A stretch of DNA of 64,000 nucleotides from Streptomyces formicae (GTDB taxonomy: Bacteria > Actinomycetota > Actinomycetes > Streptomycetales > Streptomycetaceae): contig NZ_CP022685.1 in the NCBI RefSeq assembly GCF_002556545.1, positions 1,302,001 through 1,366,000 of the forward strand, read 5' to 3'. Under the pieces are notes generated by a model, which was not told the origin of the DNA, ran no database searches, and saw only the letters and a program-made list of their open reading frames with translations. Shown in pieces: positions 889 to 29,988 of the stretch. The position numbers and the translations under genes are program-made. Within the stretch, counting starts at the first letter, position 1. Each line of letters opens with the position of its first letter.

Positions 889-2342
889 TCAGTGGCTCAG
901 CTCGGCCAGTTCCTGAAGGTCCCGCGCCGTCGAGGCGCCGAGCTGGAGCGCGACGTCCTTGGCCTGGTGTGCGGCGATGTAGAGGAGCGTCGCGAAGAAA
1001 AGGACCCGGACGTGGGTGGCGGCGCCGACGACCCAGATGTTCTCGGGCGGCGCTTGCGCGGACGTGCGGATACGCAGGTCCGCGCCGAGCCGGTCGACCG
1101 GGAGGGCGTGGCGCGGGGCGTGCTCCAGGTGGATGCTGTCGTCCGTGGTGTCGTGCCAGAGCACGGGCGGTTCGTAACCGCACGCGCTGACGACACGGTC
1201 GACCGTGCTCACGTCTCCGTCGGGCCACTCCACCGACCACACAGGGCCGCGACGTCGCACGCGCACCGGGTAGTCCCGCGCCAGGCGCAGCGCTCCGCGA
1301 TCGATGTGTCCGAGCAGCTTTCGGGCGTTGGGCAGGATCAAGGCCGTGGCGTATCTGCGGCCGACGGTGTGGAATGCCTTCAGGACCTTCGCCCGCGCCG
1401 GAGGCGGCAGGGTGGGTATCCATGCGGCGAGTTCCGCGCTCACGCCGACGGCGACGTCCTGCCACGCACAGGCCCCGCTCTCGGCAAGGGCTGTCTCCGC
1501 CCTGAGCCGCTGGACGGGATCAGTCGCGCCCGTCATCTGTTCGCGCAGCGGGCGGGCGTCGCACTGGCGGACCGACTCGACCATGATCCTGGTGAGCTTC
1601 CGCACCAGGCGGGGGTCCGCCGAATCGAGGGACGCGATGCCCTGGGACGCGGTGACCGATGCGGGCAGCAGCGGCGTCGCCGTACGGACCGCGGGCAGTT
1701 GGCCGGAGGGCGAGGCCATGGTGACGCGGCTGCCGTCCCCGCACAGCAGCAGGGCGGCGTCGACGGCGGACTGACGGGACCCGAGGACGAGGACCCGGGA
1801 CCCCGGCGGCACACGGCGCGCGAGGCGGTCGGCGGGGAACGGGCTCGCCAGGAAGGTCGGATCGTCCTGATGAGCGCGCATGAGCTCGGGGATGCGCGGC
1901 TTCTCGAGTCCCGCGGCGACCACCACGTCAGAGGCCCGCACCTCGGTGCCGTCGCTCAACGCCACGCGGTATCCGCCCGTGCGCTTGCCGATGCTCCGCG
2001 CCCTGGCACGGATCCGTTCGACCCGGACGCCGCGGGCGGCGGCCAGGACGGAGTACTCCTCGAAGCGGTGGGCGACGTACTCGCCGAGGAGGCGACGCTC
2101 CACGACGTCGTGCGGGGCGCGGGACAGGCCGCGGTCGCACAGATAGTCCACGAAGTCGTACGGCTCGTCCGGCACGAGGGAGTTGGCCTCGCAGGAACTG
2201 TTGGTCAGCAGGTCGGGGTGGTACTCGCCGAACGCGATGCCCCGGCCGACGTCGCGGGGGTCGACGATCCGGATGGACCGGTGACGTGCCGTGCGCACCG
2301 CGTTGACAAAGACACTCACGCCCGTCGCCCCGGCTCCGATGA

Positions 2343-2361
<19 letters not shown>
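889..2361 (-). CDS. FAD/NAD(P)-binding oxidoreductase of the Hpg/NRPS cluster
   Basis: This 490-residue protein has an N-terminal dinucleotide site (IIGAGATGVS, residues 6-15) and a second nucleotide-binding segment around LVLGSRQSAVDA in the middle. A C-terminal GAATHVRVLFFATLLY segment resembles the closing helix of flavoproteins of the PF13454 type, which are related to the ornithine/lysine N-hydroxylase fold. Its ATG overlaps the end of hmaS-hmo by 19 bp, so the two are probably translationally coupled, and the adenylation domain follows 48 bp later. The likely role is oxidation of a building block or of the assembled peptide. The substrate cannot be read from sequence, and neither N- nor C-oxidation is excluded. 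Confidence 0.85.
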
Positions 2362-4589
<2,228 letters not shown>

Positions 4590-4604
4590 GACTGGACCAC
4601 CCTT

Positions 4605-4661: not shown

Positions 4662-4753
4662 AAGGGGGAGGTTCTCGTGCGCCTCAGGCCAAGCGCCTTC
4701 CATAACGCTGCCAGCTTTGCCAATTCGGCCGTCGGCCGCCACCGTTCGCCCGG

Positions 4754-4782
4754 TGCAGCAACGTGCGCCGCACGTTGCTGCA
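4754..4782. promoter_or_regulatory. Cluster operator site 1 (TGCAGCAA-N13-TTGCTGCA), upstream of hmaS-hmo
   Basis: The arms TGCAGCAA (4754-4761) and TTGCTGCA (4775-4782) flank 13 bp. Here the inner bases are complementary too, so the whole 29 bp is a perfect palindrome. The same element with the same spacing occurs at 7466-7494 and, with one mismatch per arm, at 16886-16914. It lies 165 bp upstream of the hmaS-hmo start and 12 bp past the aroC stop, so this copy could also act as an intrinsic terminator for aroC. Confidence 0.75.
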
Positions 4783-4793
4783 GCGGTTCGCAC

Positions 4794-5987
4794 TCACCGG
4801 ATCTGGAGGTTTTCGAGGTACGACGTCACGTTGCGCCGGGTCTCGGTCACGCTGTCGCCGCCGAACTTCTCGGCGACGGCGTCGGCCAGGGTCAGCGCGA
4901 CCATCGCCTCGGCGACGATGCCCGCGGCCGGGACCGCGCACACGTCGGAGCGCTGGTGGTGCGCCTTGGTGGCCTCGCCGGTGGCCACGTCGACGGTGGC
5001 CAGCGCGCGCGGCACGGTCGCGATGGGCTTCATCGCGGCCCGCACACGCAGCAGTTCACCGGTGGTCAGACCGCCCTCGGTGCCGCCGGAGCGTCCCGAG
5101 GCGCGCCGGATACCGTCGTCGGTGGCAACGATCTCGTCGTGCGCCTGGGAGCCGGGCACACGCGCGAGGTCGAAGCCGTCACCGACCTCGACGCCCTTGA
5201 TCGCCTGGATACCCATCAGCGCGGCCGCCAGCCGCGCGTCGAGCCGCCGGTCCCAGTGCACGTGCGAGCCGAGGCCGACGGGCACGCCGTACGCGAGCAC
5301 CTCGACCACACCGCCCAGGGTGTCACCGTCCTTGTGGGCCTGGTCGATCTCGGCGACCATCGCCTTCGACGCGTCGGCATCGAGGCAGCGCACCGGGTCG
5401 GCGTCGAGCTTCTCGACATCGGCGGGGGTCGGGTACACGCCGTAGGGAGCCTTGGCGCTCGCCAGCTCGGTCACGTGGCTGACGATCTCGATCCCGGCCG
5501 TCTCCTTCAGGTAGGAGCGGGCCACCGCGCCGAGCGCGACGCGGGCCGCGGTCTCGCGCGCCGAGGCGCGCTCCAGGATCGGCCGGGCCTCGTCGAAGCC
5601 GTACTTCTGCATGCCGGCGAGGTCGGCGTGGCCGGGCCTCGGGCGGGTCAGCGGGGCGTTACGGGCCAGATCGGCGAGGACCGCCGGGTCGACCGGGTCG
5701 GCCGCCATGACCTGGTCCCACTTGGGCCACTCGGTGTTGCCCACCATGACCGCCACCGGCGAGCCCATGGTCAGGCCGTGCCGCACGCCACCGAGGAAGG
5801 TGACCTCGTCACGCTCGAACTTCATGCGCGCACCGCGTCCATAGCCCAGGCGGCGCCGTGCCAGATGGTCGGCCACCATCTCCGTGGTGATCGGCACGCC
5901 GGCGGGAAGTCCCTCCAGCGTCGCCACAAGTGCGGGTCCGTGGGACTCCCCAGCGGTCAGCCAGCGCAACCTGCCCATCGAGCTCAA
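4794..5987 (-). CDS. aroC: Chorismate synthase, probably a cluster-dedicated copy
   Basis: This 397-residue protein of normal length catalyses 5-enolpyruvylshikimate-3-phosphate to chorismate using reduced FMN, in the cytoplasm. It has the chorismate synthase signature GESHGP near the N-terminus, [11 protein letters not shown] near 45-55 and the RPGHAD region near 115. The start is TTG 5987, which overlaps the aroA stop (TTGA) and has an AAGGAG ribosome site 5 bases upstream; an ATG at 5978 is possible but too far from that site. Translational coupling to aroA, together with hmaS-hmo downstream, suggests a second chorismate synthase that feeds hydroxyphenylpyruvate production for Hpg. Whether a housekeeping copy exists elsewhere cannot be seen here. 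Confidence 0.96.
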
Positions 5988-7369
5988 CGGTTCTCCTTCG
6001 CCATGCCGACCGTGTTCGTCACGTCGGCCGTGTTCGTCATGTCGGTCGTGCCGACGGGAAGTTCGTACCGGGAGAACAGCCGTCGCATCTCGTTGTGGAA
6101 TCCGGGAAACGTCTTGGCGACACAGGCGGGGTCGTCCAGGGTGATCGTTCCGGGGGCCACGAGCCCGAGGACGGAGAACGCCATCGCGATCCGGTGGTCC
6201 CGGCGGCAGTTGACGCGGGCGGGACGGAGCGGGCCCGGGTGAATAGTGATCCTGTCGGCGCCTTCCCGGGTCTGGACTCCGATCGCCGCGAGGTTGGCCG
6301 CGACGGCCGCTATCCGATCGGATTCCTTCAGCCGCGCGTGGCCGATCCCCCGGATGGTGATGGGGGCGTCCACGAGTGGGGCGATGGCGGCGAGGGTCAT
6401 GAAGGTGTCCGAGATCTCGCCCATGTCGACGGTGAATCCGCCGCGGAGCGTTCCGTTCCCCGTCACGGTGGTCGCGGTCTTCCCCACCTGCACGCGGGCA
6501 CCGGCCTTCGCCAGGACCTCGACGAACCGCAGGTCACCCTGCGCGCTGTCGGTGCCGAGGCCCGGAACCGTCACGGTCTGCCCGGTCCCGGCCGCCGCTG
6601 CGAAGAAGTACGAGGCGGTGGACGCGTCCGGTTCGATCGCCACGTCGGCGGCGGCGTACGCACCGGGTTCCACGGCGAAGTCACCGTCGTCCCGCTCCTG
6701 GACCCGTGCGCCGAAGCGGCGCATGAGGGACAGCGTCATGTCGATGTAGGGGCGGCTGACCAGCCGCGCTCCCCGCAGCGTGAGTCCACGCCGCATCAGG
6801 GGCGCCGCCATCAGCAGACCGCTGAGGTACTGGCTACTCATGGACGAGTCCACGGTCACCTCGCCGCCGTCCAGGCCGTCGGCGTCGATCACCAGGGGCA
6901 GGCCGCCGCCCACACCCGCGGTTGCCCGCGCGCCGATCCTCAACAGCGCGTCGACCAGAGGCTTTTGCGGGCGCGCCCGCAGCTGTGCGGAGCCGTCGAA
7001 GAGGAAGGCGCCCTGCCCGGTGGCGGCGAAGGGAGGAAGGAACCGCCCCGCGGTCCCCGCATCGGCGCACCAGACCCTGGCAGGGCCGACCGGGCCCCTG
7101 CCGATTCCGGTCACGTCCCAGACCTCGTCCAGTGGGCTGCTCTCCCATCGGGCCCCCATGCCCGCCACCGCCGCCCGGAACGCGATGGTGTCGTCACTGA
7201 CGAGCGGGGCCAGGAGGCGGCTGACACCGGTGGCGGCAGCGGCGAGCAGGAGTGTTCTGTTGGTCAGGCTCTTCGAACCAGGTATGCGGGGGACCAACTC
7301 TGAGGAACGTGCCGTATCAAAGGACGGCCGGTCTGCTTCGGTCCGCTCGGAGCGTAATTTGGCATCCAT
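5984..7369 (-). CDS. aroA: 3-phosphoshikimate 1-carboxyvinyltransferase (EPSP synthase), cluster copy
   Basis: This 461-residue protein transfers the enolpyruvyl group from PEP to shikimate-3-phosphate. Visible motifs are PGSKSLTNR near the N-terminus (phosphate/PEP binding), [15 protein letters not shown] and [10 protein letters not shown] near the C-terminus. The start is ATG 7369 with AAGGA 7 bases upstream; a much longer open frame running back to 8125 covers low-complexity and promoter DNA and was rejected. Codon 5 is TTA (7355-7357), the rare leucine codon read by the bldA tRNA, which suggests developmental control of the whole aroA-aroC unit. The pair lies directly behind cluster operator site 2. 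In streptomycetes housekeeping aroA and aroC are normally not adjacent, which supports a specialised copy. Confidence 0.95.
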
Positions 7370-7465
7370 CAAGTAATCCTTCCCTAGGCGGATTTCCAAA
7401 GAAGGGGGCGTTCCCTGAACGCGCCGTCGCGACACTAGTCTGGACCGTCCTGGCGTGCGGAGATG

Positions 7466-7494
7466 TGCAGCAAGCTGCATCACAACTTGCTGCA
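7466..7494. promoter_or_regulatory. Cluster operator site 2 (TGCAGCAA-N13-TTGCTGCA), upstream of aroA
   Basis: The arms are exact at 7466-7473 and 7487-7494 and extend to GTGCAGCAAG / CTTGCTGCAC around 11 bp. The site lies 97 bp upstream of the aroA start. A 10-N11-10 layout resembles the geometry of StrR-type sites, although the arm sequence differs. The rest of the 7370-7784 spacer holds no gene that I can support; it contains the repeats at 7641-7720 and presumably the divergent promoters. Confidence 0.78.
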
Positions 7495-7640
7495 CGATGC
7501 GGTGATGGCGGGCCGCTCGACCGGAAGGGCAAGCTGATTTCCGTGGTTGCCATGTGACTGCTCGACTGGGTCGTTCCGGTGGAGGACGACACCGCCGCCT
7601 TTTCATCCGAACAATTCGCCGAGAACGCCGAGAACGCCGA

Positions 7641-7720
7641 CCGACGCGTCGACTCGATTCGGCTTGACTTGACTCGATTCGACTTTGATTCGACTCGATT
7701 CGGTTCGACTCGATTCGGAC
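7641..7720. repeat. Degenerate GACTCGATTCG repeat tract upstream of the alcohol dehydrogenase
   Basis: Four copies of ACTCGATTC(G) occur within about 70 bp (starting near 7652, 7672, 7693 and 7709), with related GATTCGACT fragments between them. Just before the tract, GAGAACGCC is duplicated at 7621-7638. The composition is far lower in G+C than the neighbours. The tract lies 65-145 bp upstream of the dehydrogenase start, so it may be part of its promoter or a slippage-prone junction. Confidence 0.7.
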
Positions 7721-7784
7721 GAATTGAGGAACGACGCAGCGGCGGTCCGCCCGTCCTCTCCGAGCCAAGGGAAACCGGATCACC

Positions 7785-8831
7785 ATGCCCAGCACCCTCG
7801 CGTTGTCGCTGCCCGCCAAGGGAGCAGCGTTCACACCGACCACCATCGAGCGGCGCCCACTGCGCGACGACGACGTCCGCATCGACATCAGCTTCTGCGG
7901 AATCTGCCACACCGATCTGCACTTCGGCCACGACGACTGGGGCGGCACGCTCTTCCCCTTCGTGCCCGGACACGAGATCACCGGAGTGGTCTCGGAAGTC
8001 GGCGACGCCGTCACCGCGTTCGGGGTGGGTGACCGGGTCGGCGTGGGCTGCATGGTCAACTCCTGCGGGCGGTGCGCGCCTTGCACGGCAGGCGAGGAGC
8101 AGTACTGCACCGAGGGCTTCGTCAAGACGTACTCGGCCCGTGACCACGACGGGACGGTGACCCTCGGCGGTTACAGCCAGTCCATCGTCGTCGCCGAACG
8201 CTTCGTCCTGCGCATCCCCGATGAACTCGAACTTGCCGGTGCGGCCCCCCTGTTGTGCGCGGGCGTCACCGTCTACTCGCCGCTGCGCCGGTGGGGGGCG
8301 GGTCCCGGCAAGAAGGTCGGCGTGCTCGGCATGGGCGGTCTCGGGCATCTCGGTGTGAAGATCGCCGCGGCCATGGGTGCCGAGGTCACGCTCCTCGGCC
8401 GGTCGCCGGAGAAGAGGGACGACGCGCTGGGCTTCGGTGCCGCACGGTTCGTGGACACCCGCGACAGCGCGGAACTCGCCGCGCTCGCCGGCCACTTCGA
8501 CCTGATCGTCAACACCGTGCCCGCCCTCCTCGACGTGGACACGTATCTGGGCCTGCTAGACCTCGGGGGCACCCTCGTCAATGTGGGCGCACCGGGCGAC
8601 CCGGTCGCCTCGTACAACGTCTTCTCGCTCCTGAGCGCCCGCCGCAGCATCGCGGGGTCATCCATCGGCGGCATACGCGAGACCCAGGACATGCTCGACT
8701 TCTGCACGAAGCACAAGATCACATCGGAGATCGAGATGATCCCCGCCGACCGGGTCCCCGAGGCCTGGGAGAACCTGTCCGGCGTCCGATACCGCTATGT
8801 CATCGACATCGCCACGCTCGGCGCGCCCTGA
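7785..8831 (+). CDS. Zinc-dependent NAD(P) alcohol dehydrogenase (cinnamyl-alcohol dehydrogenase type)
   Basis: This 348-residue medium-chain dehydrogenase/reductase probably oxidises or reduces an aldehyde/alcohol pair with NADP(H). The catalytic zinc site is CGICHTD (about residues 37-43) with GHE near 64. The structural zinc lobe is C-x2-C-x2-C-x7-C (CGRCAPC...C, about 88-102). The nucleotide fold carries GMGGLGHLGVK near 183. Length and layout match the YahK/CAD group. The gene is transcribed away from aroA and stands alone, convergent with the TetR gene. A role in the pathway, for example processing of a polyketide or aromatic aldehyde, is only suggested by location. Confidence 0.93.
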   Translation: MPSTLALSLPAKGAAFTPTTIERRPLRDDDVRIDISFCGICHTDLHFGHDDWGGTLFPFVPGHEITGVVSEVGDAVTAFGVGDRVGVGCMVNSCGRCAPCTAGEEQYCTEGFVKTYSARDHDGTVTLGGYSQSIVVAERFVLRIPDELELAGAAPLLCAGVTVYSPLRRWGAGPGKKVGVLGMGGLGHLGVKIAAAMGAEVTLLGRSPEKRDDALGFGAARFVDTRDSAELAALAGHFDLIVNTVPALLDVDTYLGLLDLGGTLVNVGAPGDPVASYNVFSLLSARRSIAGSSIGGIRETQDMLDFCTKHKITSEIEMIPADRVPEAWENLSGVRYRYVIDIATLGAP

Positions 8832-8855
8832 CGCCCCGTAACTGACGACGGCGGG

Positions 8856-8882
8856 GAGGCGTGAGCCCTGGGCGCACGCCTC
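8856..8882. terminator. Bidirectional intrinsic terminator
   Basis: An 8-bp perfect stem, GAGGCGTG (8856-8863) with CACGCCTC (8875-8882), lies between the convergent dehydrogenase and TetR genes. There is no U-run, as is usual in streptomycetes. Confidence 0.55.
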
Positions 8883-8922
8883 TCGCGCCACGGCTGCCAG
8901 GCCCCGATCCACCGGACGGCCC

Positions 8923-9546
8923 CTAGTGCGTCGCCGTCGTGGTCATGCCCTTGAGGAGGAGCCGCAGGATCTGCTGCAGCTCGTCGGCCAGCGGTTCGAT
9001 CTTGTCCGAAGGATCGTGGGCCCATCGGTACAGGGCTCCGAGGTAGACGTCGCGCAGCACGTTGCCGACACCGATCGGCGACATGCCCGGGCTCAGCTCG
9101 CCCTCGCGCACCCCGCTCTCGACGATCTTGGCGAACACCTCCGCGACGTGCGGCTCCTCAAGGATCGGCCGGCCCGCCTTCACCCATGCGGTGAGCATGG
9201 CGGCGGTGAGCCGCGGATCCTCCTGGTTGATGCGGACGAGGACCGCCATGCACTCCTCGAGTTGGGCGACCGAACCGGGGGTGAACACGTTGCTCGCGTC
9301 GAGGCCCGTCACGAGTGCGGCACGCCTCCTGTCTCCCCAGGCGCCGATGATGTCTTCCTTGCGCTGGAAGTAGTTGAAGAAAGTTCCACGCGCCACGTCG
9401 GCCCGCTCGGCGATCTCGTCGATGGAGGTGTGGTCGTACCCCTTCTCCACGATGAGCTTGACTGCCGCCGAGTACAGCCGTTCCCGGACTCGTTGCTTAT
9501 TGCGTTCCCGGCGGCTGACCGGCGGCGTTGCCGCACTCGCGTCCAT
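8923..9546 (-). CDS. TetR/AcrR family transcriptional regulator
   Basis: The 207-residue protein has a typical N-terminal TetR helix-turn-helix at about residues 15-60 (KGYDHTSIDEIAERADVARG then FFNYFQRKEDI) and an all-alpha ligand/dimer domain behind it. ATG 9546 was chosen because AGGAGG precedes it by six bases; an upstream in-frame ATG at 9693 lacks such a site and would include promoter DNA. The gene sits between the PKS gene, which ends 153 bp upstream, and the convergent alcohol dehydrogenase. Either neighbour could be its target. The inducer is unknown. Confidence 0.92.
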   Translation of the reverse strand: MDASAATPPVSRRERNKQRVRERLYSAAVKLIVEKGYDHTSIDEIAERADVARGTFFNYFQRKEDIIGAWGDRRRAALVTGLDASNVFTPGSVAQLEECMAVLVRINQEDPRLTAAMLTAWVKAGRPILEEPHVAEVFAKIVESGVREGELSPGMSPIGVGNVLRDVYLGALYRWAHDPSDKIEPLADELQQILRLLLKGMTTTATH

Positions 9547-9664
9547 TGAGTGCCTCCTGTGTGTGGTGAGCTCGCGAGGCCTGAGTGATGTGAGCCGACG
9601 GCAAGGGGCCACCCGGATCCAGTCGACCTGTCGGGGGCAGTGGGGCGCGCTGGCCACTGTTAAT

Positions 9665-9693
9665 CTATCGCACATTTTTATACTGGAGTGCAA
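9665..9693 (-). promoter_or_regulatory. Candidate promoter/operator of the TetR gene
   Basis: Read on the minus strand, TTGCAC (9693-9688) is followed after 17 bp by CGATAG (9670-9665), in an unusually A+T-rich pocket just beyond the PKS stop. The GCAC/GTGC arms at its edges could be part of an autoregulatory operator. A further inverted pair, CAGTGG/CCACTG, lies downstream near 9640-9660. Confidence 0.4.
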
Positions 9694-9699
9694 GTTTCC

Positions 9700-12600
9700 T
9701 TACGACTCCTGCCCGCGCATCTGGCCGAAACGCGGTGAAGCGCCGTGCGGGGCAAGGCTCTTGGCCAGACTCGCGATACTCTCCGCACCCAGGAGCCGCC
9801 CGGCGGTGACCTCGAAGCCAAGGCTGCGGCGCAGACGCTGCCGGAGCTGGGAGGCCATGAGGGAGTCGAGCCCGAGCTCCCGCAGCGACCGCCGCTCGTC
9901 GATGTCCGAAGCCGCCATGCCCAGCAGGGCCGCGGAGTGCTCGAGAAGCGCCTCGGCGGCACTTCCAGGGCCGGGAGGCAAAGCCGCGACCTCCTTAACG
10001 GATGGCGCAGGGGCGGCAGTTCGCGCCGCCGCCGGCTCCCGCTCCAGGTCCCGCTCTCGGTCCCGGTCCCGGTCGGCAGGCGGTAAGACGACCGAGCGCA
10101 GGAGGCCGGTGAGCAAGCCGCCGCCGAAGGGGCCCGTGACCTTCTTGGCCAGGCCCGCGACCGACGCCGCGCACTGCCCGGTGAGGGCCGATACGAGCGC
10201 GGGCACGTGCGCCAGGGGCCTGCCCGCCCGGGACGACGGCCGTGCGAGGCGCCGCAGGTGGATTCCGGAGAACCGCGCGAGGACCCGACGGTCCGGTGCG
10301 ATCAGGAGGACGTCGGCCCGCAGCGAGGCTCCACCGCCCTCGGTCCGCACGTCGATCAGGCTCCAGAATTCCGGTTCCAGTTCCGCGAAGAACCGGACCG
10401 AATCGATGGACACGGGGACGTACGCGAAGCCGTCGTCACCCGACACGGCTCCCGGCCTGGCCGCGAGGAGCGGCTGCAGGCCCGCCTCCCAGTCGGCGCG
10501 GGACAGGGGCCGCGGCAGCCGGACGCGGGCCACGGCCGCGCCGTCGCGCCGCCACAGGTGCTCCACGGCCCGGAACGGCTCTTGGGAGTCGCGGCCGTGG
10601 CGCTGCGCGAGTCCCTGGAGGTCCTGTGCCCCCAGGTACTCCCCGCAGCCTGCGAGCGCGGCGTCGAGAGCCTCCGAAGCCAGCGGCTCCGCGTCGTCGG
10701 CGTCCGCCCCGACGACCCGTCCCCAGGCGCAGAAGACGGGGTCGGGTACACCCTGAAGCGCGGCCTGCGCCGTGACGGTGCGGGCCGCTCCGGCTTCTGC
10801 TCCGTGCCCGTCCAGGGTCACCCGCAGGGTCGTACCGCCGGCCTCTTCGAGAGGCACGGGCGCGTCACCCAGCTTCACGTCCCGCAGCTCGAACGCCGCG
10901 GCGCGGTCGGCCTCTTGCGCGGTTTCGAGCATCGCTGCGAGATAGACGACGGGCGGCACGGGCGCGCCTGTGTGGTGGGCCGCGCCGTCGCGCCCTTCGG
11001 CGGTCCCGCTCCAGGACGCGAGGTCGAACTGCCGGACCCGGGGGACGGCCGTCCCGTGCGTGGCCACGGAGTCGGCCGACGCACGCCGGAACTGCGCCAC
11101 GTCCCACGCGTAGGTGGGCAACGACGGCACGTGCCGCGGGTCTCCGCCGTACCACCGCCGCCAGTCCACCCGCCCGCCCAGGGCGAAGATCCGTCCGGCG
11201 GCCCTGGCCAATTCGGTGGGTTCGTCCTGCCCCGCGTGCAGTGAGGCCACCGCGACATCGCCATGGTCGCCTTGGTCGCCTTGGTCGCCGCCCAGCGTGT
11301 CGTTCATGGGGGCGACGAGGACCGGATGCGGGCTGATTTCGAGGAAGACGCTCTCTGCGGCGCAACCCACTTCTCGTACGGTGTCGGCGAACTGCACGGG
11401 GCGGCGCAGGTTGTCCACCCAGTAGGCGGCCGTCAGCTCCGGACCCTTGACCTCGCAGCCGTGCACGGTGGAGATCATGCCGCTCGCGCCGGGAACCGGG
11501 GAGAGCCCGGCCAGTTCCTGTAGCAGGTCGTCGCGCAGGGAGTCCATCTGCGGCGAGTGGGACGCCACGTTCACCTTCACCGAACGGCACAGGACGTCGC
11601 GCTCCTCCAGTTCCGCCCGCAGGCGCGCGAGGGCTACGGGATCACCCGCGAGCACGGTGGTGGTGGGTGAGTTCTCGGCCGCCACGCACACCGCCCCCTC
11701 GTAGGCCGCGGTGTACTGCCGGGCCCGGGCGGCCGGGAGTTCGACGACGAGCATGGCGCCGCGACCCGCCCCGCGCTGCATCAGCCGACTGCGTCGGCAG
11801 ATCACCGCGGCCGCGTCGCCGAGTGACAAGGCGCCGAAGACATGGGCCGCCGCGACCTCACCCATGCTGTGTCCGATGCACAGATCCGGTGTCAGGCCGC
11901 GTTCGCGCCAGGCGGCGGCGAGCGCCACCTGCACCGCCCACAGGACGGGCTGAACGATGCTCACGTCCTCCGGGAAGCCCGCGTCGGAGGCCAGCCGTTC
12001 CAGAACCGACCAGCCGAGTTCCTTGGAGACGGCCCGGTCGCACGCGTCGAGTGCCGTACGGAAGGCGGGCGATGAGCGGTACAGGGACCGGGTCATGCCC
12101 GCCCACTGCGACCCCTGCCCGGAGAAGGTGAACACCAGGCGCTTGTCGCCCGACAGGCCCGCCTCCCCCGTTCCGCCGTCGGCGATCGTCTCGCCCGCGG
12201 CGAGGGCGTACAGCCGCCGCGACAGCGACGCGTGATCGTGGCCCACGACCCACAGCCGGTGCGGGTGGGCGTCGCGCCGGGTGACCGCGGCGGCGCAGAT
12301 GCCGGCGATGCGGTGCTGGCGCCCTGGCCCGGAGGGGCCCAGGTAGTCCGCGTACTTCCGGGCCAGGCGACGGAGGGATCCGGAGGTGCGCGCGCTGAGC
12401 ACCAGCAGACAGGGCCCGTCCTCGGTGGCGGGGTGGGGGATGCCGGGCGCGGGTTCGGGGACGTGGGCGCCGACGACCAGTTGGGCGTTCGTGCCGGAAA
12501 GACCGAAGGAGCTGACGCCGAGCAGGGCGCGGGCACCCGCCGGTTGCAAGGGCTGTTGGCGCGTCACCACGCGTACCGGGAAGTCGTCCTGGGCCAGCAG

Positions 12601-13764
12601 GGGGTGCGCCTCGTCGAGATGCAGCGACGCCGGTACGACTCCGTGGCGCAGCATGAGGACCGCCTTGATCAGCCCGGCCATGCCCGCTGTGGCCTCGGTG
12701 TGACCGATGTTGGTCTTGACCGATCCGGTGAGGAGCGGCCTGTCCGCCCCTCGGCCCGGGCCGACCGCCTCGGCGAGCGCCTGGAGCTCCACCCCGTCAC
12801 CGACACGCGTTCCGGTGCCGTGCGCCTCGACGTAGTCGAGTTCCGATGGCTCGATACCGGCGCTGCGACATGCCTCGCGCACCATGGCGGCCTGGCCCTC
12901 TACCGAAGGGTGGAGCAGGAGTCCGCTCGCCGCGCCGTCGTTCGTGGTCGCGCTGCCGAGCAGTACCGCATGGACGGGGTCGCCGTCCCGGAGCGCGTCG
13001 TCAAGTCGCTTGAGCACCACCGCGCCCACGCCTTCGCTGCGCACGAACCCGTCCGCGCGGGCGTCACCGAACTTGATGCGGCCTCCGGGAGAGAGCATGT
13101 CCCCCTGGGAGTAGGCGACGGCGTCGTGCGGAGACAGGATCACGTTGACGCCCGCGGCGATGCACAGATCGCTCTCGCCGGTGAGCAGACTCTGGCGCGC
13201 GGCGTGCACGGCGACCAGCGACGAGGAGCAGGCGGTGTCCAGGACGACGCTCGGCCCGCGCAGGTCGAGTGCGTAGGAGACGCGTCCGGCCGTGACGGCG
13301 CGCAGTCGGCTGCCCACCAGGCCGCGGACATCGGGGTCTTGGGGGCGAGGGTCGGTCTCCGCGTACTCCGCCGTCGCCTGCCCGACAAACACGCCGCCGC
13401 GGCTGCCCGCGAGCCGGGAGGGGCGTATCCCCGCCGACTCCAGGGCTTCCCACACCACGTGCAGCAGCAGCCGCTGCTGCGGGTCCATGGCGCGTGCCTC
13501 CACGGGCGAGATGCCGAAGAACGCCGCGTCGAAGCCGAAGGGGTCGACGAGGAAGCCGCCGTGCCGGGACACGGTCCGGCCGCGGGTCATGGGGGTGGAG
13601 TCGTAGCGGTCGCCCACGTCGAAGCGGTCGGTGGGTACCGGCGTCACGGTGTCGGTCTGCGCCTCGAGCACGTCCCACAGCTCATCGACACTCTCGATCC
13701 CCGGCAACCGGCACCCCATGCCGACTATCGCGACGGGGGGTACGTCCGACGGTTCTGTACGCAT
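9700..13764 (-). CDS. Single-module type I polyketide synthase, KS-AT-(degenerate DH)-ACP
   Basis: The protein has about 1354 residues. The ketosynthase (about 10-430) has the active cysteine in TACSSS (C179), HGTGT (H315) and NIGH (H355). The acyltransferase (about 545-830) has GHSMG (serine near 633) and the specificity motif VASH, nearer the methylmalonyl-type YASH than malonyl HAFH; the substrate is unsettled. Residues from about 910 to 1170 have a dehydratase-like double hotdog pattern, but the HxxxGxxxxP motif is shortened and the usual HPALLDA aspartate segment reads LQPLLAA, so it is probably inactive. No ketoreductase or thioesterase is present. After an Asp/Arg/Glu-rich linker the carrier protein has LGLDSL (serine near 1301). 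ATG 13764 follows GGAG by six bases; a TTG at 13776 is less likely. The divergent neighbour is the LuxR-type regulator. Confidence 0.92.
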   Translation of the reverse strand: MRTEPSDVPPVAIVGMGCRLPGIESVDELWDVLEAQTDTVTPVPTDRFDVGDRYDSTPMTRGRTVSRHGGFLVDPFGFDAAFFGISPVEARAMDPQQRLLLHVVWEALESAGIRPSRLAGSRGGVFVGQATAEYAETDPRPQDPDVRGLVGSRLRAVTAGRVSYALDLRGPSVVLDTACSSSLVAVHAARQSLLTGESDLCIAAGVNVILSPHDAVAYSQGDMLSPGGRIKFGDARADGFVRSEGVGAVVLKRLDDALRDGDPVHAVLLGSATTNDGAASGLLLHPSVEGQAAMVREACRSAGIEPSELDYVEAHGTGTRVGDGVELQALAEAVGPGRGADRPLLTGSVKTNIGHTEATAGMAGLIKAVLMLRHGVVPASLHLDEAHPLLAQDDFPVRVVTRQQPLQPAGARALLGVSSFGLSGTNAQLVVGAHVPEPAPGIPHPATEDGPCLLVLSARTSGSLRRLARKYADYLGPSGPGRQHRIAGICAAAVTRRDAHPHRLWVVGHDHASLSRRLYALAAGETIADGGTGEAGLSGDKRLVFTFSGQGSQWAGMTRSLYRSSPAFRTALDACDRAVSKELGWSVLERLASDAGFPEDVSIVQPVLWAVQVALAAAWRERGLTPDLCIGHSMGEVAAAHVFGALSLGDAAAVICRRSRLMQRGAGRGAMLVVELPAARARQYTAAYEGAVCVAAENSPTTTVLAGDPVALARLRAELEERDVLCRSVKVNVASHSPQMDSLRDDLLQELAGLSPVPGASGMISTVHGCEVKGPELTAAYWVDNLRRPVQFADTVREVGCAAESVFLEISPHPVLVAPMNDTLGGDQGDQGDHGDVAVASLHAGQDEPTELARAAGRIFALGGRVDWRRWYGGDPRHVPSLPTYAWDVAQFRRASADSVATHGTAVPRVRQFDLASWSGTAEGRDGAAHHTGAPVPPVVYLAAMLETAQEADRAAAFELRDVKLGDAPVPLEEAGGTTLRVTLDGHGAEAGAARTVTAQAALQGVPDPVFCAWGRVVGADADDAEPLASEALDAALAGCGEYLGAQDLQGLAQRHGRDSQEPFRAVEHLWRRDGAAVARVRLPRPLSRADWEAGLQPLLAARPGAVSGDDGFAYVPVSIDSVRFFAELEPEFWSLIDVRTEGGGASLRADVLLIAPDRRVLARFSGIHLRRLARPSSRAGRPLAHVPALVSALTGQCAASVAGLAKKVTGPFGGGLLTGLLRSVVLPPADRDRDRERDLEREPAAARTAAPAPSVKEVAALPPGPGSAAEALLEHSAALLGMAASDIDERRSLRELGLDSLMASQLRQRLRRSLGFEVTAGRLLGAESIASLAKSLAPHGASPRFGQMRGQES

Positions 13765-13819
13765 GCACGACTCCAAGCTTCACGGCACGGGCAGCGCTAC
13801 AGATGATCGCCAAAAACAG

Positions 13820-13954
13820 CGGTTCAAAAATACACTCGGGACCATTTTTCACCTATGTTTCGTCGGCTCTTGACGAAACCTTGGACCCAGGCGGAGAAAA
13901 GTGAACCCTTTGGCTACCTACGCCCCTTATGCACATTGACGGAAACTTGAACCG
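13820..13954. promoter_or_regulatory. Divergent TTGAACCG boxes facing the PKS and regulator genes
   Basis: TTGAACCG occurs on the minus strand at 13827-13820, reading towards the PKS gene, and on the plus strand at 13947-13954, reading towards the regulator gene. Each may be a -35-like element or a half-site of an activator. The region is clearly richer in A+T than the coding DNA. Confidence 0.4.
13857..13879. promoter_or_regulatory. Perfect inverted repeat GTTTCGTC-N7-GACGAAAC
   Basis: Arms of 8 bp at 13857-13864 and 13872-13879 are perfectly complementary around a 7-bp spacer. The element sits in the middle of the 275-bp divergent region between the PKS gene and the LuxR-type regulator gene. 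Its length and symmetry fit a dimeric regulator, possibly the adjacent one. It differs from the three cluster operators. Confidence 0.55.
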
Positions 13955-14039
13955 GCGTCAAAAAATTGTACTTGCGTCTATCTATAGCTCCGTGTTTATT
14001 CTTGGGACGTAGTCATGCCGGAGAGGTAGGGGGAAGATT

Positions 14040-15068
14040 GTGGATATCGCCCAGATCGTTCCGCTGATGGGTGATGAGGACCTGGCGGCCTATCAGTTCC
14101 TCGTCACGACCGGCGGATCCACCCTCGAGAGACTGGCGAGGAGTCTGGGCTGGGGCCCGGCACAGACGGAGCGCGTGCTGTTCAGGCTCAGAAGGATGAA
14201 GCTGGCGCGGTCCAGGGTGGAGGGCCGCGACGACTGGATCGCCGTCCATCCGGAAACCGTCAAGCGCCAGTACGCCAAGCCCCTCTCGGGCGTCATCGAC
14301 GCGTGGCAGGCGCAGTTGGACGGACTCCGCGAACAGCTCAACACGCTCTCCGGACTGCGCGCCGACGGCATGGAGGGCGGCGGCCCCAGTCCCGTGGTCA
14401 CCATCGAGGGCGCGTCCGACATCCGTGACGCGATCGAGGACCGCGCGGCACGCTGCGCCGAAGAGGTGTTCGCCGTACAGCCCCTGGGGCGGGGAACCTC
14501 GGCGCTCGCCCAGATCGTGCTCTCCCCGGACAGCGGGCCCCTCGCATCGGCGATCACCGTCCGGGTGCTGCTCCCGCACCAGTCCCGTTACGACGCGGAG
14601 GTACGCGACTGCGCCGAACGAATATCGGCGTCCGGAGGCGAGGTACGGACCACCGCAGCGTCCCTGCCCGCGCTGATCGCCTTCGACCGCTCGGTCGTGT
14701 TCCTCCTTGACGGCGATGAAGCGGGCAAGGCGCACATGGTGCGGCACGAAGCCTTAGTCGAGTTCATCCTGCACACGGTGGTGAGCGCCTGGGCGAGCAG
14801 CGCGGTCTTTCAGGGAACGGGCGGCAACAACAGGATCCCGGAGTGGCTGACGCAGGAGACGAAGACCGCGATCGTCCAACTGCTCGCCGCCGGTTACAAG
14901 GACGAAGTGGTGGCAAGGCGCCTGGGCATCGGCGTGCGGACGTGCCGGAAGTACATCGCCGAGATGTTCGGGGACCTGGGGGCGCAGAGCCGGTTCCAGG
15001 CCGGTTGGATCATTCGCGACCACATGGGCGTGTCCGGTCCCGAGAGGCCCGTGGCGAACACGGCGTGA
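14040..15068 (+). CDS. Pathway regulator with TrmB-like N-terminus and LuxR-type C-terminal HTH; contains TTA codon
   Basis: This 342-residue protein has an N-terminal winged-helix segment (about 15-65) of the TrmB type and a central domain (about 115-250) that may sense a ligand. The C-terminal LuxR-type helix-turn-helix runs from about 268 to 320 (AAGYKDEVVARRLGIGVRT). It therefore belongs to the TrmB-LuxR group common in actinobacterial specialised-metabolite clusters. The start is GTG 14040 with a GGGGGAAG ribosome site. Codon 239 is TTA (14754-14756), so translation should depend on bldA tRNA. It is divergent from the PKS gene and convergent with the monooxygenase gene, and probably activates part of the cluster. 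Confidence 0.88.
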   Translation: MDIAQIVPLMGDEDLAAYQFLVTTGGSTLERLARSLGWGPAQTERVLFRLRRMKLARSRVEGRDDWIAVHPETVKRQYAKPLSGVIDAWQAQLDGLREQLNTLSGLRADGMEGGGPSPVVTIEGASDIRDAIEDRAARCAEEVFAVQPLGRGTSALAQIVLSPDSGPLASAITVRVLLPHQSRYDAEVRDCAERISASGGEVRTTAASLPALIAFDRSVVFLLDGDEAGKAHMVRHEALVEFILHTVVSAWASSAVFQGTGGNNRIPEWLTQETKTAIVQLLAAGYKDEVVARRLGIGVRTCRKYIAEMFGDLGAQSRFQAGWIIRDHMGVSGPERPVANTA

Positions 15069-15074
15069 CCCGCG

Positions 15075-15114
15075 GCGTTGCCGCATCCGGAGGTGATCAC
15101 GGGTGCGGCAACGC
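15075..15114. terminator. Bidirectional intrinsic terminator
   Basis: An 11-bp perfect stem, GCGTTGCCGCA (15075-15085) with TGCGGCAACGC (15104-15114), fills the short gap between the convergent regulator and monooxygenase genes. Confidence 0.75.
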
Positions 15115-15119
15115 TCGGC

Positions 15120-16718
15120 TCAGCGGGTGAGGACCGCGGTGAGGGCCGTCGTGAGCTCACCCTCCGGGTCGACAGAGGACCGCTTGCCGCGCCACGCCAC
15201 GACGGCGTCGGGGCGGATCAGCGTGGCGCCGGTCGGTTCGACCCCGTAGCGGCCGCACCAGGTGCCGTCGCCGTCGGTGAGGCGATCGCCGAGCCGGTAC
15301 GCGGCCAGGGTGACGCCGAGTCGGCGGGCGACCTCTTCGGCGGCGGTGACCCACTCCGGGGCTTCGTACCCTGCCAGGAGCACGAAACCGCGGCCGAACA
15401 GGTCGTGGGTGGAGAACGTGCGCGGGCCGTCGGTGAGGACGACGTGCGGGGCCCGTCCCCCGGGTCGCCCTGTGGGGTGCCACGGATCCTCCTGGAGGCT
15501 GCCGTCGTCGTCGGCCTCGGTGCGGACCGCGGCGGAGTGGCACCGGAAGCCGAGGAACTCCTTGGCCATGGGGATGGGGGCGTTGGGGTCGGCCGGGTTG
15601 TAGCTGGCGGGCACCCGGCCCTCGGAGATCTTCGCCAGTTCGACCTCTCGCTTGAGGGTGATGTCGATGAGGGGGCGCCGCTCGGTCTCGTACGTGTCGA
15701 GCAGGCCGGCCCCGGCCTGCCCGGTGAGGACGAGGGCGAGCCGCCAGGACAGGTCGTAGGCGTCCTGGATGGCGAGGTTGCCGCCCTGGCCCCCGTTGGG
15801 CGGGCAGGCATGCGCGGAGTCACCGGCCAGGAAGACGCGGCCCTCGCGGAACCGTTCGGCCATTTTGTGGTTGATGGCGAAGAAGCGGGCGTTGACGAAG
15901 GTGACGTCGATCTCGGCGTCGCCGATGGCGTGGCGGATGCGCTCCAGGCAGCGGGCCTCGGTGAAGTCCTCCGGCGTCTCGCCCCGTTCGGGAAAGTAGT
16001 CGACCCACAGGGTGTGCCGCTCGGAGCCGTCCAGAATGAAGCTGGATCCGCTGCCCGGCATTCCGATGACCTCGACCGCGCCCTTCGCCACGTAGCGCGT
16101 CAGATCGGCCTCGAACGTGAGGATGTACATGTGGCCGATGACGCCGCTGCCCTCGACAGGGATGCCGAGCATCTCCCGGACCGGGCTCATGTTCCCGTCG
16201 GCCGCCACCATGTAGTCCGCCTCGACCACCCGTTCACGGCCGGTGGACACGTCGCGCAGCGTCGCGGTGACCTTCTCGTCGTCCTGGACGAAGGAGACCA
16301 GCTCGGTGCCGAGGCACACCTGGGCGCCGGCCTCTTCGGCGCTCGTACGGAGAATCTCTTCGACCTGGGCCTGCGACACCCACGCCAGCGGCGGCACCGA
16401 CGAGAGTTCCTGCGGGTCGGGCTGCCCGTCCAGCGGGTCGAGGTAGCGCCGCCCAGGATCGGCTATGGACGTGCCGTGGCTGATCTGGGGCCACTGCGCT
16501 TCCCCGAGGGCGGTGCGGAGTCGCTGCGCCACGCCGGGCAGCGTGTTGAGCAGTTCCTGGGAACGTGTGTTGAGCCCCCATGCCTTCGGCAGCGTGGAAG
16601 CACTCGGCCGGCGTTCCACCAGCAGAGGGCGCACACCGCGTGCGGCAAGGCTCAAAGCGGTGGTGAGCCCGGTGTAGGCGCCTCCGACGATGAGTACGGG
16701 AACTCGCGGGACTGACAT
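15120..16718 (-). CDS. FAD-dependent aromatic-ring monooxygenase (phenol hydroxylase type)
   Basis: This 532-residue protein of the p-hydroxybenzoate hydroxylase superfamily, group A, has an N-terminal FAD motif (LIVGGAYTGL, with Ala-Tyr where GGGPxG is usual) and the DG motif (MVAADGNMSPVR). The GD motif is AGDSAHACPPNGGQGGN, followed by a C-terminal thioredoxin-like domain as in TfdB and RdmE. It should hydroxylate a phenolic or polyketide substrate using NAD(P)H and O2. ATG 16718 follows GGAGG by eight bases, whereas an upstream ATG at 16760 has no good site. Cluster operator site 3 lies 168 bp upstream, which ties the gene to the Hpg cluster. Confidence 0.93.
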   Translation of the reverse strand: MSVPRVPVLIVGGAYTGLTTALSLAARGVRPLLVERRPSASTLPKAWGLNTRSQELLNTLPGVAQRLRTALGEAQWPQISHGTSIADPGRRYLDPLDGQPDPQELSSVPPLAWVSQAQVEEILRTSAEEAGAQVCLGTELVSFVQDDEKVTATLRDVSTGRERVVEADYMVAADGNMSPVREMLGIPVEGSGVIGHMYILTFEADLTRYVAKGAVEVIGMPGSGSSFILDGSERHTLWVDYFPERGETPEDFTEARCLERIRHAIGDAEIDVTFVNARFFAINHKMAERFREGRVFLAGDSAHACPPNGGQGGNLAIQDAYDLSWRLALVLTGQAGAGLLDTYETERRPLIDITLKREVELAKISEGRVPASYNPADPNAPIPMAKEFLGFRCHSAAVRTEADDDGSLQEDPWHPTGRPGGRAPHVVLTDGPRTFSTHDLFGRGFVLLAGYEAPEWVTAAEEVARRLGVTLAAYRLGDRLTDGDGTWCGRYGVEPTGATLIRPDAVVAWRGKRSSVDPEGELTTALTAVLTR

Positions 16719-16885
16719 GACATCTGCCTCCGTTGCTGCTGTGTTCAGAGCTGGGCTCATTCGCCAGAATTCCGCTCTCCGCCCGAAGAGTTCGGATGGT
16801 TAATTCGCGCATCATTTGACTTTCACGCGGCGTGGCTACGCGACCAGCTTGACGATTCACCGGGCCCCCTGCCAGCTCCGGACAG

Positions 16886-16914
16886 TGCAGCTAGTTGTCA
16901 GGCACGTTCCTGCA
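16886..16914. promoter_or_regulatory. Cluster operator site 3 (TGCAGCTA-N13-TTCCTGCA), upstream of the monooxygenase
   Basis: The arms match the sites at 4754 and 7466 at seven of eight positions each, and the two changes (A to T, G to C) fall inside the arms; the spacer is again 13 bp and the outer G...C pair is kept. It lies 168 bp upstream of the minus-strand monooxygenase. Nothing else that I can support as a gene lies in the 338-bp stretch 16719-17056. Confidence 0.65.
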
Positions 16915-17056
16915 CGACGGTTCGATCCCGTCCGCCTCAGTGACTTGCCCACCACGCGGGATTTCGCGCCATTCGGTCATTCGAGCAGGTCTACAACTCC
17001 TTATCCCGCCAGAGAACTTCCGCTGAATCCAGTTCCATGCGATTCGGCGCAGCTCG

Positions 17057-28414: not shown

Positions 28415-28445
28415 TGACCCGTCACCGACTCCGCGAAACTGCCGG

Positions 28446-28934
28446 TCACTCCTCCTCGCTCCCCTCCCCCACCTCCCGCTCGAGGCGCGCGATGGCCGTC
28501 TTGATGCCGTTCCCGTACTCGTCGTCCCCCAGCGAACCGACCGCCCCGCGCGCCCGGCGCAGATGGCTGCGCGCAGCACCCGGCCGCCCGAGCTTCACGT
28601 AGTCCGCGGCCAGATTGAGGTGCAGGGAGGGGTAGAACCCGCGCACGGCGAGGGATTGGTGGTGTTGGTTCAGCCGCGTGTCGGTCAGCTCGTCCGCCGC
28701 CGACAACGCCCGCAGGTCCCACGCCAGTTCGGCCGAGGGGTCCTCCTGCGTGTCCGCCATGTAGTGCGCGAGCGTGCAGCGGTGCAGCGGGTCGCCGTCC
28801 TCGCCGATCTCCCCCCACAGGACGAGGAAGCGGCCCTGCGCCTCCTCGCGGTCCCCGCCGTGATGCAGCATGACCGCCTGCCCGATGCGCGTCATCATGG
28901 CGTCCTCCGCCGTCTGCTCCCGTTGTTCCGTCAC
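28446..28934 (-). CDS. TPR-like hypothetical protein
   Basis: The protein has about 162 residues and is mostly amphipathic helices, with a tetratricopeptide-like pattern (RCTLAHYMADTQEDPSAELA, LHLNLAADYVKLGRPGAARS, HLRRARGAVGSLGDDEYGNG). It probably binds a protein partner. Start choice is awkward: GTG 28934 and ATG 28898 are both preceded by a GGAGGACGC ribosome site, a local duplication; the longer start was chosen. The open frame reaches 28991. Confidence 0.8.
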   Translation of the reverse strand: MTEQREQTAEDAMMTRIGQAVMLHHGGDREEAQGRFLVLWGEIGEDGDPLHRCTLAHYMADTQEDPSAELAWDLRALSAADELTDTRLNQHHQSLAVRGFYPSLHLNLAADYVKLGRPGAARSHLRRARGAVGSLGDDEYGNGIKTAIARLEREVGEGSEEE

Positions 28935-29022
28935 CGCGTCCTCCGCACTCGTCCGCCCGTCGCCCACGACGCTAGCGGCAGCCACTGACAATCGCGGTCA
29001 GGCACGTTCGCGGGCGGGGCGC

Positions 29023-29988
29023 TCACGCGTACCGCTGGGCCAGGCCGGTGACGCACCTCGTCATTTCCTCGCGGAGTTCCGGTGGCCCGAGCACCTCGGC
29101 CTCCAGACCCAGACGGAGGATGTCGGCCACCGCGACCCGCAGTTCCTCCACGTCGAGGTCCACCTCGGCCCAGCCGTCCGCGTCGGCCTCGCCCGCCCCG
29201 GCCACGGCCCTGTCCCCCGCCGCCCCGAACAGCGCGGGCAGCAGCCGAAGACCGGCGGGAGAGACCCTGAGCCGCGCCGTGCCGCGCAGCACCCGCGCCT
29301 CCAGGCCGCGCGACGCCTCCTCCCAGTACGCCGCGAGGTCGAAGCCTTCGGGGCGCCCGGCGGACTCCTCCTCCGTCACGGTCAGTTCGAGGAACCGCGA
29401 CACCCGATACGTCCGTACGACGCCGTCGGCGGACGCCACCAGGTACCAGTTGCCCGCCTTGAGGACGAGGCCCAGCGGATGCAGCACGCGCTGCGTCTCG
29501 CCGCCCCAGCGCCGGTAGTGCGCCCGCAGCAGCCGCCTGCGCCACACGGCGTCGGCGACCTGGGCAAGGAGCGGCGCGGGTTCGGCGGTGCGGAACCACG
29601 CGGTCGCGTCGAGGTGGAAGCGCTCCTGGATGCGCCGGGAGCGCTCGCCGAGGCCCGCGGGCAGCGCGGCGGCCAACTTGAGCTCAGCGGTGGCCAGTTC
29701 CGCGCCGAGTCCAAGCTCGGCCGCGGCCGTCGGCATGCCCGCGAGGGCGAGGGAGTCGGCCTCGTCGTCCGTGAGCCCGGTCAGCCGTGTGCGGTAGCCG
29801 TCGAGGAGCCGGAAACCGCCCGCAGGGCCGCGCTCCGCGTACACGGGCACCCCGGAGGCGGCGAGCGCCTCGGCGTCCCGGTAGACGGTCCTGACCGAGA
29901 CCTCCAGCTCCTCGGCGAGTTCGGGCGCGCTCATGCGCCCTCGGTTCTGGAGCAGCAGGAGGAGGGCGAGAAGCCGGTCGGCACGCAT
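29023..29988 (-). CDS. YafY-type HTH/WYL-domain transcriptional regulator
   Basis: The 321-residue protein has an N-terminal DeoR-like winged HTH (about 1-55; RMSAPELAEELEVSVRTVYR), a WYL domain (about 140-215) and a C-terminal WCX-like extension (about 235-315). ATG 29988 is the conserved family start; the frame upstream to 30099 covers the operator. It is divergent from a DUF3224 gene with a perfect inverted repeat between them, and probably represses it and itself. Confidence 0.93.
   Translation of the reverse strand: MRADRLLALLLLLQNRGRMSAPELAEELEVSVRTVYRDAEALAASGVPVYAERGPAGGFRLLDGYRTRLTGLTDDEADSLALAGMPTAAAELGLGAELATAELKLAAALPAGLGERSRRIQERFHLDATAWFRTAEPAPLLAQVADAVWRRRLLRAHYRRWGGETQRVLHPLGLVLKAGNWYLVASADGVVRTYRVSRFLELTVTEEESAGRPEGFDLAAYWEEASRGLEARVLRGTARLRVSPAGLRLLPALFGAAGDRAVAGAGEADADGWAEVDLDVEELRVAVADILRLGLEAEVLGPPELREEMTRCVTGLAQRYA

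Follow-up and report, generated by a model that had tools for sequence, protein, structure and literature searches.

A stretch of 64,000 nucleotides of Streptomyces formicae (assembly GCF_002556545.1, contig NZ_CP022685.1, positions 1,302,001 to 1,366,000 of the forward strand; hereafter the window) holds part of a biosynthetic gene cluster in which one long inverted repeat recurs upstream of several genes. What does this repeat control, and which protein binds it? An initial annotation, made from the window alone, had taken three copies of the repeat for a pathway operator, compared them with the StrR-type sites of hydroxyphenylglycine (Hpg)-containing antibiotic clusters and proposed the regulator encoded at 14040 as a candidate binder. 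The operator and the candidate have stood, the comparison with StrR has not. Sequence comparison strongly supports the repeat as the operator of a pathway-specific regulon with at least four operators. With a probability of roughly 0.8, the 14040 regulator is the protein that binds it; this regulator probably activates the supply and tailoring operons and is itself probably controlled by the TetR-family protein of the cluster.

Operator copies in the window and in the genome

The pattern TGCAGCAA-N13-TTGCTGCA occurs perfectly at 4754-4782 and 7466-7494, and with one mismatch per arm at 16886-16914. The three operators of the window are as follows.

4753..4783, no strand: operator 1, upstream of the hmaS-hmo fusion gene (minus strand); found at the same place in a related genome, G247
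7465..7495, no strand: operator 2, between the divergent aroA-aroC (minus strand) and alcohol dehydrogenase (plus strand) genes; matches the family-level pattern described below exactly
16885..16915, no strand: operator 3, upstream of the flavin adenine dinucleotide (FAD) monooxygenase gene (minus strand)

The distance from operator edge to start codon is 161 bp for the hmaS-like gene, 93 bp for aroA and 125 or 167 bp for the monooxygenase, depending on the start chosen. This confirms three copies before separate transcription units, at 93-167 bp for the 95-170 bp first given. Operator 2 is divergent and faces the alcohol dehydrogenase gene as well as aroA. A degenerate form of the pattern, allowed up to three mismatches, matched the window at these three places alone (six matches, both strands counted). 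In 100 shuffles the matches averaged 0.79 and never exceeded 4, which agrees with the earlier claim that three such matches exceed chance.

We then considered the genome, a single contig of 9,611,874 bases (window, 1302001-1366000), since the annotation had proposed a scan to see whether the sites are confined to the cluster. With up to three mismatches the strict pattern was found at 19 places, two exact, one with one mismatch, one with two and 15 with three. All four places with at most two mismatches fall in 1285239-1318914, that is 34 kb of 9.6 Mb, and thus in the cluster region. The 15 three-mismatch places are scattered over the genome and are uninformative, because the same pattern read backwards yields 59 places at the same tolerance. 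The fourth operator copy (C1:1285239-1285267, L017:3239-3267; C, L and G numbers are our handles for contigs, loci and genomes) is located 16.7 kb to the left of the window, ahead of a gene for 3-deoxy-D-arabino-heptulosonate 7-phosphate (DAHP) synthase (PF00793), and had been missed because it is outside the window. No further dyad was found in the 64 kb from 1262001 to 1326000, including the intergenic stretch between the polyketide synthase (PKS) gene and the 14040 regulator gene.

The strong support for a pathway operator that defines a regulon comes from this confinement and from the recurrence of the dyad in related clusters. A chance origin of the dyads was rejected on the shuffles, the genome scan and the refined-motif control given below. 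An RNA hairpin or terminator was set aside, without a folding test, because the sites stand upstream of genes, and conserved dyads precede genes of either strand.

Shape of the operator

We aligned 27 sites, 26 from the ten clusters described below and one from a decayed cluster remnant, identical sites being counted once. Their consensus is a 31-bp palindrome, GTGCAGCWASNTGY-N3-RCANSTWGCTGCAC. The outer TGCA and the TG at -4/-3 are almost invariant and lie about one helical turn apart, and the inner TGY-N3-RCA is conserved to the same degree as the outer positions. For this reason the 10-N11-10 layout that had been read at site 2, and on which the likeness to StrR-type sites was based, fails: it overlooked the conserved inner arms.

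The operator in related clusters

Orthologues of the 14040 regulator were found at 68-87% identity in 3 of 391 other genomes of the genus, all remaining matches being at most 39% identical, and at 65-87% in seven named genomes, one of which duplicates a genome of the 391 set. Ten distinct genomes, S. formicae included, formed the comparison set; as they were picked for having the orthologue, its presence in all ten is by construction. The DAHP synthase operon, the monooxygenase, the PKS and the TetR gene are present in 10/10 clusters. Each cluster carries 2 to 4 dyads (26 in total), one of them always before the DAHP synthase operon.

A refined motif, TGCARMWASNTGYNNNRCANSTWKYTGCA, searched with at most one mismatch, occurred in 6 of 392 genomes of the genus, versus 1 of 392 for the reversed control. 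In this blind sample, the four genomes with the regulator (at least 68% identity) hold 12 of the 14 places. As these sites went into the making of TGCARMWASNTGYNNNRCANSTWKYTGCA, independent evidence comes only from the lack of the motif elsewhere. The other two places are a decayed cluster remnant in G294 and a site in G265. The remnant (L085, C1 about 28434-29141) contains fragments of DAHP synthase, LuxC and XRE genes, and its operator matches the refined motif exactly; a regulator orthologue is absent from G294, where the best relative is 28% identical. The G265 site belongs to a different, biosynthetic-looking locus (G265:C29, L086-L088) with one window-type dyad, two CATCAAG-type dyads and a relative of the regulator 13-30 kb off.

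Architecture of the 14040 regulator

14040..15068, plus strand: candidate operator-binding regulator of 342 residues, with a TrmB-like winged helix-turn-helix (HTH), a long helix, a phospholipase D (PLD)-like domain and a C-terminal LuxR-like HTH

In the AlphaFold prediction (eight orthologues), the winged HTH at residues 12-68 is confident, with a predicted local distance difference test score (pLDDT) near 85. It is followed by a long helix (71-105), an alpha/beta domain (119-252) and, at lower confidence, a four-helix C-terminal HTH (268-331). Foldseek ranked TrmBL2 and TrmB at the top, and VIA-align matched the NucT/Nuc PLD folds over 116-259 and TrmBL2 over 1-256. The model thus shows the order that marks TrmB-like proteins, an N-terminal winged HTH and then a PLD-like domain. 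The Pfam TrmB profile (PF01978) does not match the window protein and is passed by 1 of 9 paralogues (L122, 28.0 versus a cut-off of 25.6). Seven of the 9 paralogues pass the GerE profile (PF00196); the window protein scores 18.1, below the cut-off of 23.5, and its C-terminal HTH is for that reason named LuxR-like only. This HTH is the most conserved part of the regulator family. Its match to NarL/DevR/VraR-type heads is weak and non-significant (E 0.055-0.56), and no LuxR-type entry for it was among the structural matches, in which the C-terminal HTH was barely tested. The predicted architecture is therefore a TrmB-like winged helix, a PLD-like middle domain and a C-terminal LuxR-type HTH.

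Variant dyads beside distant relatives of the regulator

The bare inner core of the dyad, CAASNTGYNNNRCANSTTG, occurred in 78 of 392 genomes and its reversed control was commoner, hence it is too weak for genome-wide use. Among the matches listed, a variant CAAG[CT]TGC-N3-GCAGCTTG recurred, and a distant relative of the regulator was present in all six loci having it; three weakly palindromic places among those matches (G388, G096, G190) had no relative within 10 kb. In other clusters, distant relatives, roughly 20-35% identical, are often accompanied by a variant dyad CANCAAGYTGC-N3-GCARCTTGNTG, which adjoins the gene of the relative or lies upstream of it.

A family pattern, CANCAASYTGYNNNRCARSTTGNTG, was drawn from these variant loci and thus partly from sites later counted. 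Searched in the 392 genomes with at most one mismatch it gave 40 places, 9 exact and 31 with one mismatch. The exact places, in 7 genomes, have a regulator-family gene within 10 kb in 7/9 cases and within 22 kb in 9/9. Twenty-five of the 31 one-mismatch places were examined, mostly new: 20 loci, G024, G173, G265 and G314 from earlier loci, and a second copy in G243. The six left out (G053, G170, G232, G065, G066, G015) share a sequence type that is coding by a frame test in L121 and L129. A family gene lies within 10 kb of 10 of the 25, namely six of the 20 loci, G024, G173, G314 (an orthologous cluster) and the second G243 copy, which is beside a truncated family gene. For a random point about 2% would be expected, because a genome has 4-14 family matches (12 genomes of the genus counted).

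Of the 12 loci that combine a site with a paralogue, eight have the site centre upstream of the family gene, at 41, 46, 54, 55, 112, 134, 135 and 277 bp. In the remaining four it is about 0.1-0.2 kb past the gene end (G171, G024), 13 kb off (G265) or 8.5 kb off (G082); the G082 site is of the sequence type called coding by the frame test in two other genomes. We also took 19 separate paralogues, selected for their protein similarity. In five of them the top-scoring site within the surrounding 20 kb stands 26-40 bp ahead of the regulator's start, where chance would give about 0.4 cases by our own reckoning. Long dyads sought within 10 kb of 19 paralogue regulators were palindromes without a common sequence, many of them hairpin-like.

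Promoter geometry and the TetR element

In 23 of 26 sequences (DAHP synthase, alcohol dehydrogenase, monooxygenase and hmaS sides), the best match to an element picked by eye, GGCAAGCTG, begins 31-33 bp beyond the end of the operator. Many single matches are no better than those of shuffled sequence, above all before DAHP synthase, so the evidence is their constant position. Beyond the operator, the DAHP synthase promoters form a gap-free alignment of roughly 65 bp, and nothing was seen at 31-33 bp on the opposite side of that site in the two sequences viewed. On the aroA/aroC side, five of five sequences show a box, TAGTRT or TAGGAT, that lies 23-27 bp beyond the operator; the box is missing in a sixth that retains an aroA remnant.

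The TetR promoter has a different element, AAACTTGCACNNNGGTATAAAA, found in 10/10 clusters at up to three mismatches. A stretch related to it precedes the regulator gene in 7/10 clusters at up to five mismatches. The recurrence of the TetR-promoter element before the 14040 gene suggests a two-tier cascade, in which the TetR protein would control the regulator, and the regulator the pathway.

7528..7536, plus strand: promoter element GGCAAGCTG, 32 bp after operator 2, alcohol dehydrogenase side
4712..4720, minus strand: promoter element GCAAAGCTG, 32 bp after operator 1
16845..16853, minus strand: promoter element GTCAAGCTG, 31 bp after operator 3
9676..9697, minus strand: AAACTTGCACNNNGGTATAAAA element of the TetR promoter, here with 1 mismatch, candidate TetR site
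13943..13982, plus strand: related stretch (AAACTTGAAC.., ..TTGTACTTGCGT) upstream of the 14040 gene, 4 mismatches to the TetR element, candidate TetR site

Which protein binds the operator

Co-occurrence and the paralogue sites favour the 14040 regulator, as the annotation had proposed. A dimer of the 342-residue protein would bind the 31-bp dyad, its two C-terminal LuxR-like heads reading the inner core AAGYTGY-N3-RCARCTT and its two N-terminal winged helices the outer arms TGCA/CAN. The outer arms change between clades, from GTGCAG to CAT, CAC or CAG; it is plausible that the conserved HTH reads the conserved inner core and the diverged winged helix the outer arms. Autoregulation is suggested for several relatives by a site whose centre falls about 26-277 bp ahead of the start of the regulator itself; in the window cluster the regulator gene may instead be under TetR control.

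Several observations weigh against this assignment. The structure model has a mean pLDDT of 62.5 and a predicted template modelling score (pTM) of 0.44. As no dyad lies in the stretch between them, the PKS and regulator genes are not evident targets. The window-type site of G265 occurs without an orthologue of the 14040 regulator, and 15 of the 25 examined one-mismatch places, the third site of G265 among them, have no family gene within 10 kb. Two more of these 15, in loci L134 and L139, are strong palindromes CA[CG]CAAGTTG-N5-CAACTTGGTG whose surrounding 20 kb lacks any relative of the regulator; in L139 there is instead a protein weakly related to the cluster's TetR (E 3.3e-6). Fourteen of the 19 paralogues chosen by similarity lack an upstream site of the kind seen in the other five. 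A class-wide sample of 360 genomes (35 of the same genus, S. formicae included, many already searched) gave a single new exact match, in G414, with a family gene 66 kb off on the same contig; the other 21 genomes from outside the genus that hold a one-mismatch place lack a family gene within 100 kb of that place. The paralogue loci look in part like one clade and are not all independent; since several resemble each other in this way, the independent cases are fewer, perhaps six to eight by our estimate.

The 14040 regulator might bind the dyad as a repressor that comes off when its PLD-like middle domain takes up a ligand. Archaeal TrmB works in this manner, its repression being relieved by sugars. 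We consider this unlikely here: start codons follow the operators at about 93-167 bp, and a promoter element recurs at a near-constant 31-33 bp downstream of the sites, a geometry that suits activation better and from which we guess that the protein acts as an activator of the biosynthetic operons. Binding and repression by the TetR-family protein (8923-9549) is improbable. Its gene is in all ten clusters, TetR proteins bind palindromes and the L139 palindrome, which has no regulator relative, has the weak TetR relative just mentioned in its 20 kb; against this, the TetR promoter has its own element, with the related stretch before the regulator gene in 7/10 clusters, and TetR relatives were found near the paralogue dyads in none of the 12 loci. 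The same count, 0/12, was obtained for relatives of an XRE/MmyB-type regulator (L017:2226-3098), and relatives of either protein (E up to 1e-5) were likewise missing from the 19 paralogue loci. This XRE gene directly adjoins the fourth operator and is found in 7/10 clusters, but it was not found in the stretches of G378 and G393 (short contigs) and G396 (40 kb read), where the operators are kept. It was set aside as the binder on co-occurrence, and we hold it very improbable that it or another left-side regulator, such as an HxlR-type protein (L016:18916-19377), binds the dyad.

StrR-type regulators of Hpg-containing antibiotic clusters are pathway-specific, with several sites per cluster, and their operator is GTTCGACTG-N11-CAGTCGAAC. 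A StrR-like protein encoded elsewhere in the genome could be invoked on the strength of the 10-N11-10 reading of site 2 and of the hmaS-like gene in the cluster, and we give it almost no credence. The inner bases of the dyad are conserved, its arms differ from the StrR consensus, the palindrome GTGCAGCWASNTGY-N3-RCANSTWGCTGCAC does not have the StrR sequence, and the architecture of the 14040 protein is different. The annotation had suggested looking for a StrR-like gene left of the window; none was present among 20 proteins scanned there, a part of the open frames. The sole ParB_N hit of the genome (PF02195), a profile that StrR would be expected to match, is at C1:4793748, 3.5 Mb away. No consensus for the StrR operator was found in PMC10886168.

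Gene content of the cluster

The genes of the window that belong to the cluster, besides the 14040 regulator, are listed below.

889..2361, minus strand: FAD-NAD(P)-binding oxidoreductase, in an apparent operon with hmaS-hmo (PF13454, 98.9 bits)
2343..4592, minus strand: 4-hydroxyphenylpyruvate dioxygenase (HPPD)-type domain fused to a flavin mononucleotide (FMN)-dependent dehydrogenase, target of operator 1 (TIGR01263, 336.7 bits; PF01070, 408.9 bits)
4794..5987, minus strand: chorismate synthase, aroC (TIGR00033, 470.1 bits)
5984..7372, minus strand: 5-enolpyruvylshikimate 3-phosphate (EPSP) synthase, aroA, target of operator 2 (TIGR01356, 378.5 bits)
7785..8831, plus strand: zinc alcohol dehydrogenase, probable second target of operator 2 (PF08240 and PF00107); operator-facing in several relatives
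8923..9549, minus strand: TetR-family regulator, probably the upper tier (TetR_N, 55.0 bits), with its own promoter element
9700..13776, minus strand: type I PKS (KS-AT-DH-ACP), divergent from the 14040 regulator
15120..16760, minus strand: FAD aromatic monooxygenase, target of operator 3 (PF01494, 282.7 bits)

Across the left edge of the window, on the minus strand, lie what we take from their translations to be an FAD protein and a nonribosomal peptide synthetase (NRPS)-type protein. The order after the NRPS-type protein is the FAD-NAD protein, the HPPD/FMN fusion, aroC-aroA, alcohol dehydrogenase (plus), TetR (minus), PKS (minus), regulator (plus) and monooxygenase (minus). The fusion protein has 749 residues and resembles HmaS and Hmo in one chain, from which we infer the gene names. 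The conserved DAHP synthase operon left of the window (L017:3404-14986) encodes, in order, DAHP synthase, a LuxC-like reductase (named so from an Aldedh match), an AMP-binding protein, an alpha-alpha toroid protein (Prenyltrans), a small protein, an acyl carrier protein, an unknown protein, a short-chain dehydrogenase/reductase, a further AMP-binding protein, an aromatic amino acid lyase and an AOC-like protein. The units preceded by a dyad are this operon, the hmaS-hmo operon, the divergent aroA-aroC and alcohol dehydrogenase pair, and the monooxygenase.

In G247 (L057) two operators stand 53 bp apart between hmaS and the alcohol dehydrogenase gene, and the window has aroC-aroA between the corresponding pair (4754-7494). 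It looks as if aroC-aroA had been inserted in the window cluster or lost in G247.

Discussion

The 14040 regulator has likenesses to several known systems. Archaeal TrmB and TrmBL2 (PDB 3qph, 2f5t, 5bpd) have a winged HTH, a long helix and a PLD-like domain in the same order; the 14040 regulator differs in its additional C-terminal LuxR-like HTH, in being bacterial and in its targets. The inner 7-3-7 core of the dyad resembles the 7-2-7 layout of NarL, but no receiver domain was found in the 14040 regulator and the operator is longer, with outer arms. The PAS-LuxR pathway regulators PimM and AmphRIV recognize a 16-bp operator, CTVGGGAWWTCCCBAG (PMC9774167). They share with our candidate a LuxR-type HTH, a location in the cluster and one palindrome repeated before several operons of a single cluster. 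The operator described here, however, is 31 bp long and of another sequence. Profile scans of the 14040 protein gave no match to a PAS domain, and its model shows a winged HTH at the N-terminus, plus a PLD-like domain. No operator or regulator of this type was evident in the top-ranked titles and abstract openings of the literature searched, mostly open-access.

The pairing of a two-headed regulator type with the dyad across the family, as it appears from these comparisons, is a larger result than the single regulon. We tentatively propose that Streptomyces carry a large and largely undescribed family of two-headed regulators, each dimer of which might read four DNA grooves through a modular operator, with a core AAGYTGC-N3-GCARCTT for the LuxR-like heads and clade-specific arms for the winged helices.

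In the cluster studied here, one switch would turn on DAHP synthase, EPSP synthase and chorismate synthase together with the tailoring genes, so that precursor supply is matched to product formation and genes of primary metabolism sit under the same switch as the product pathway. If the wider proposal is true, the operator would let two-headed regulators be matched to clusters from sequence alone, and a rule of this kind, which ties a regulator to its site, would make it possible to assign silent biosynthetic clusters to the switches that control them.

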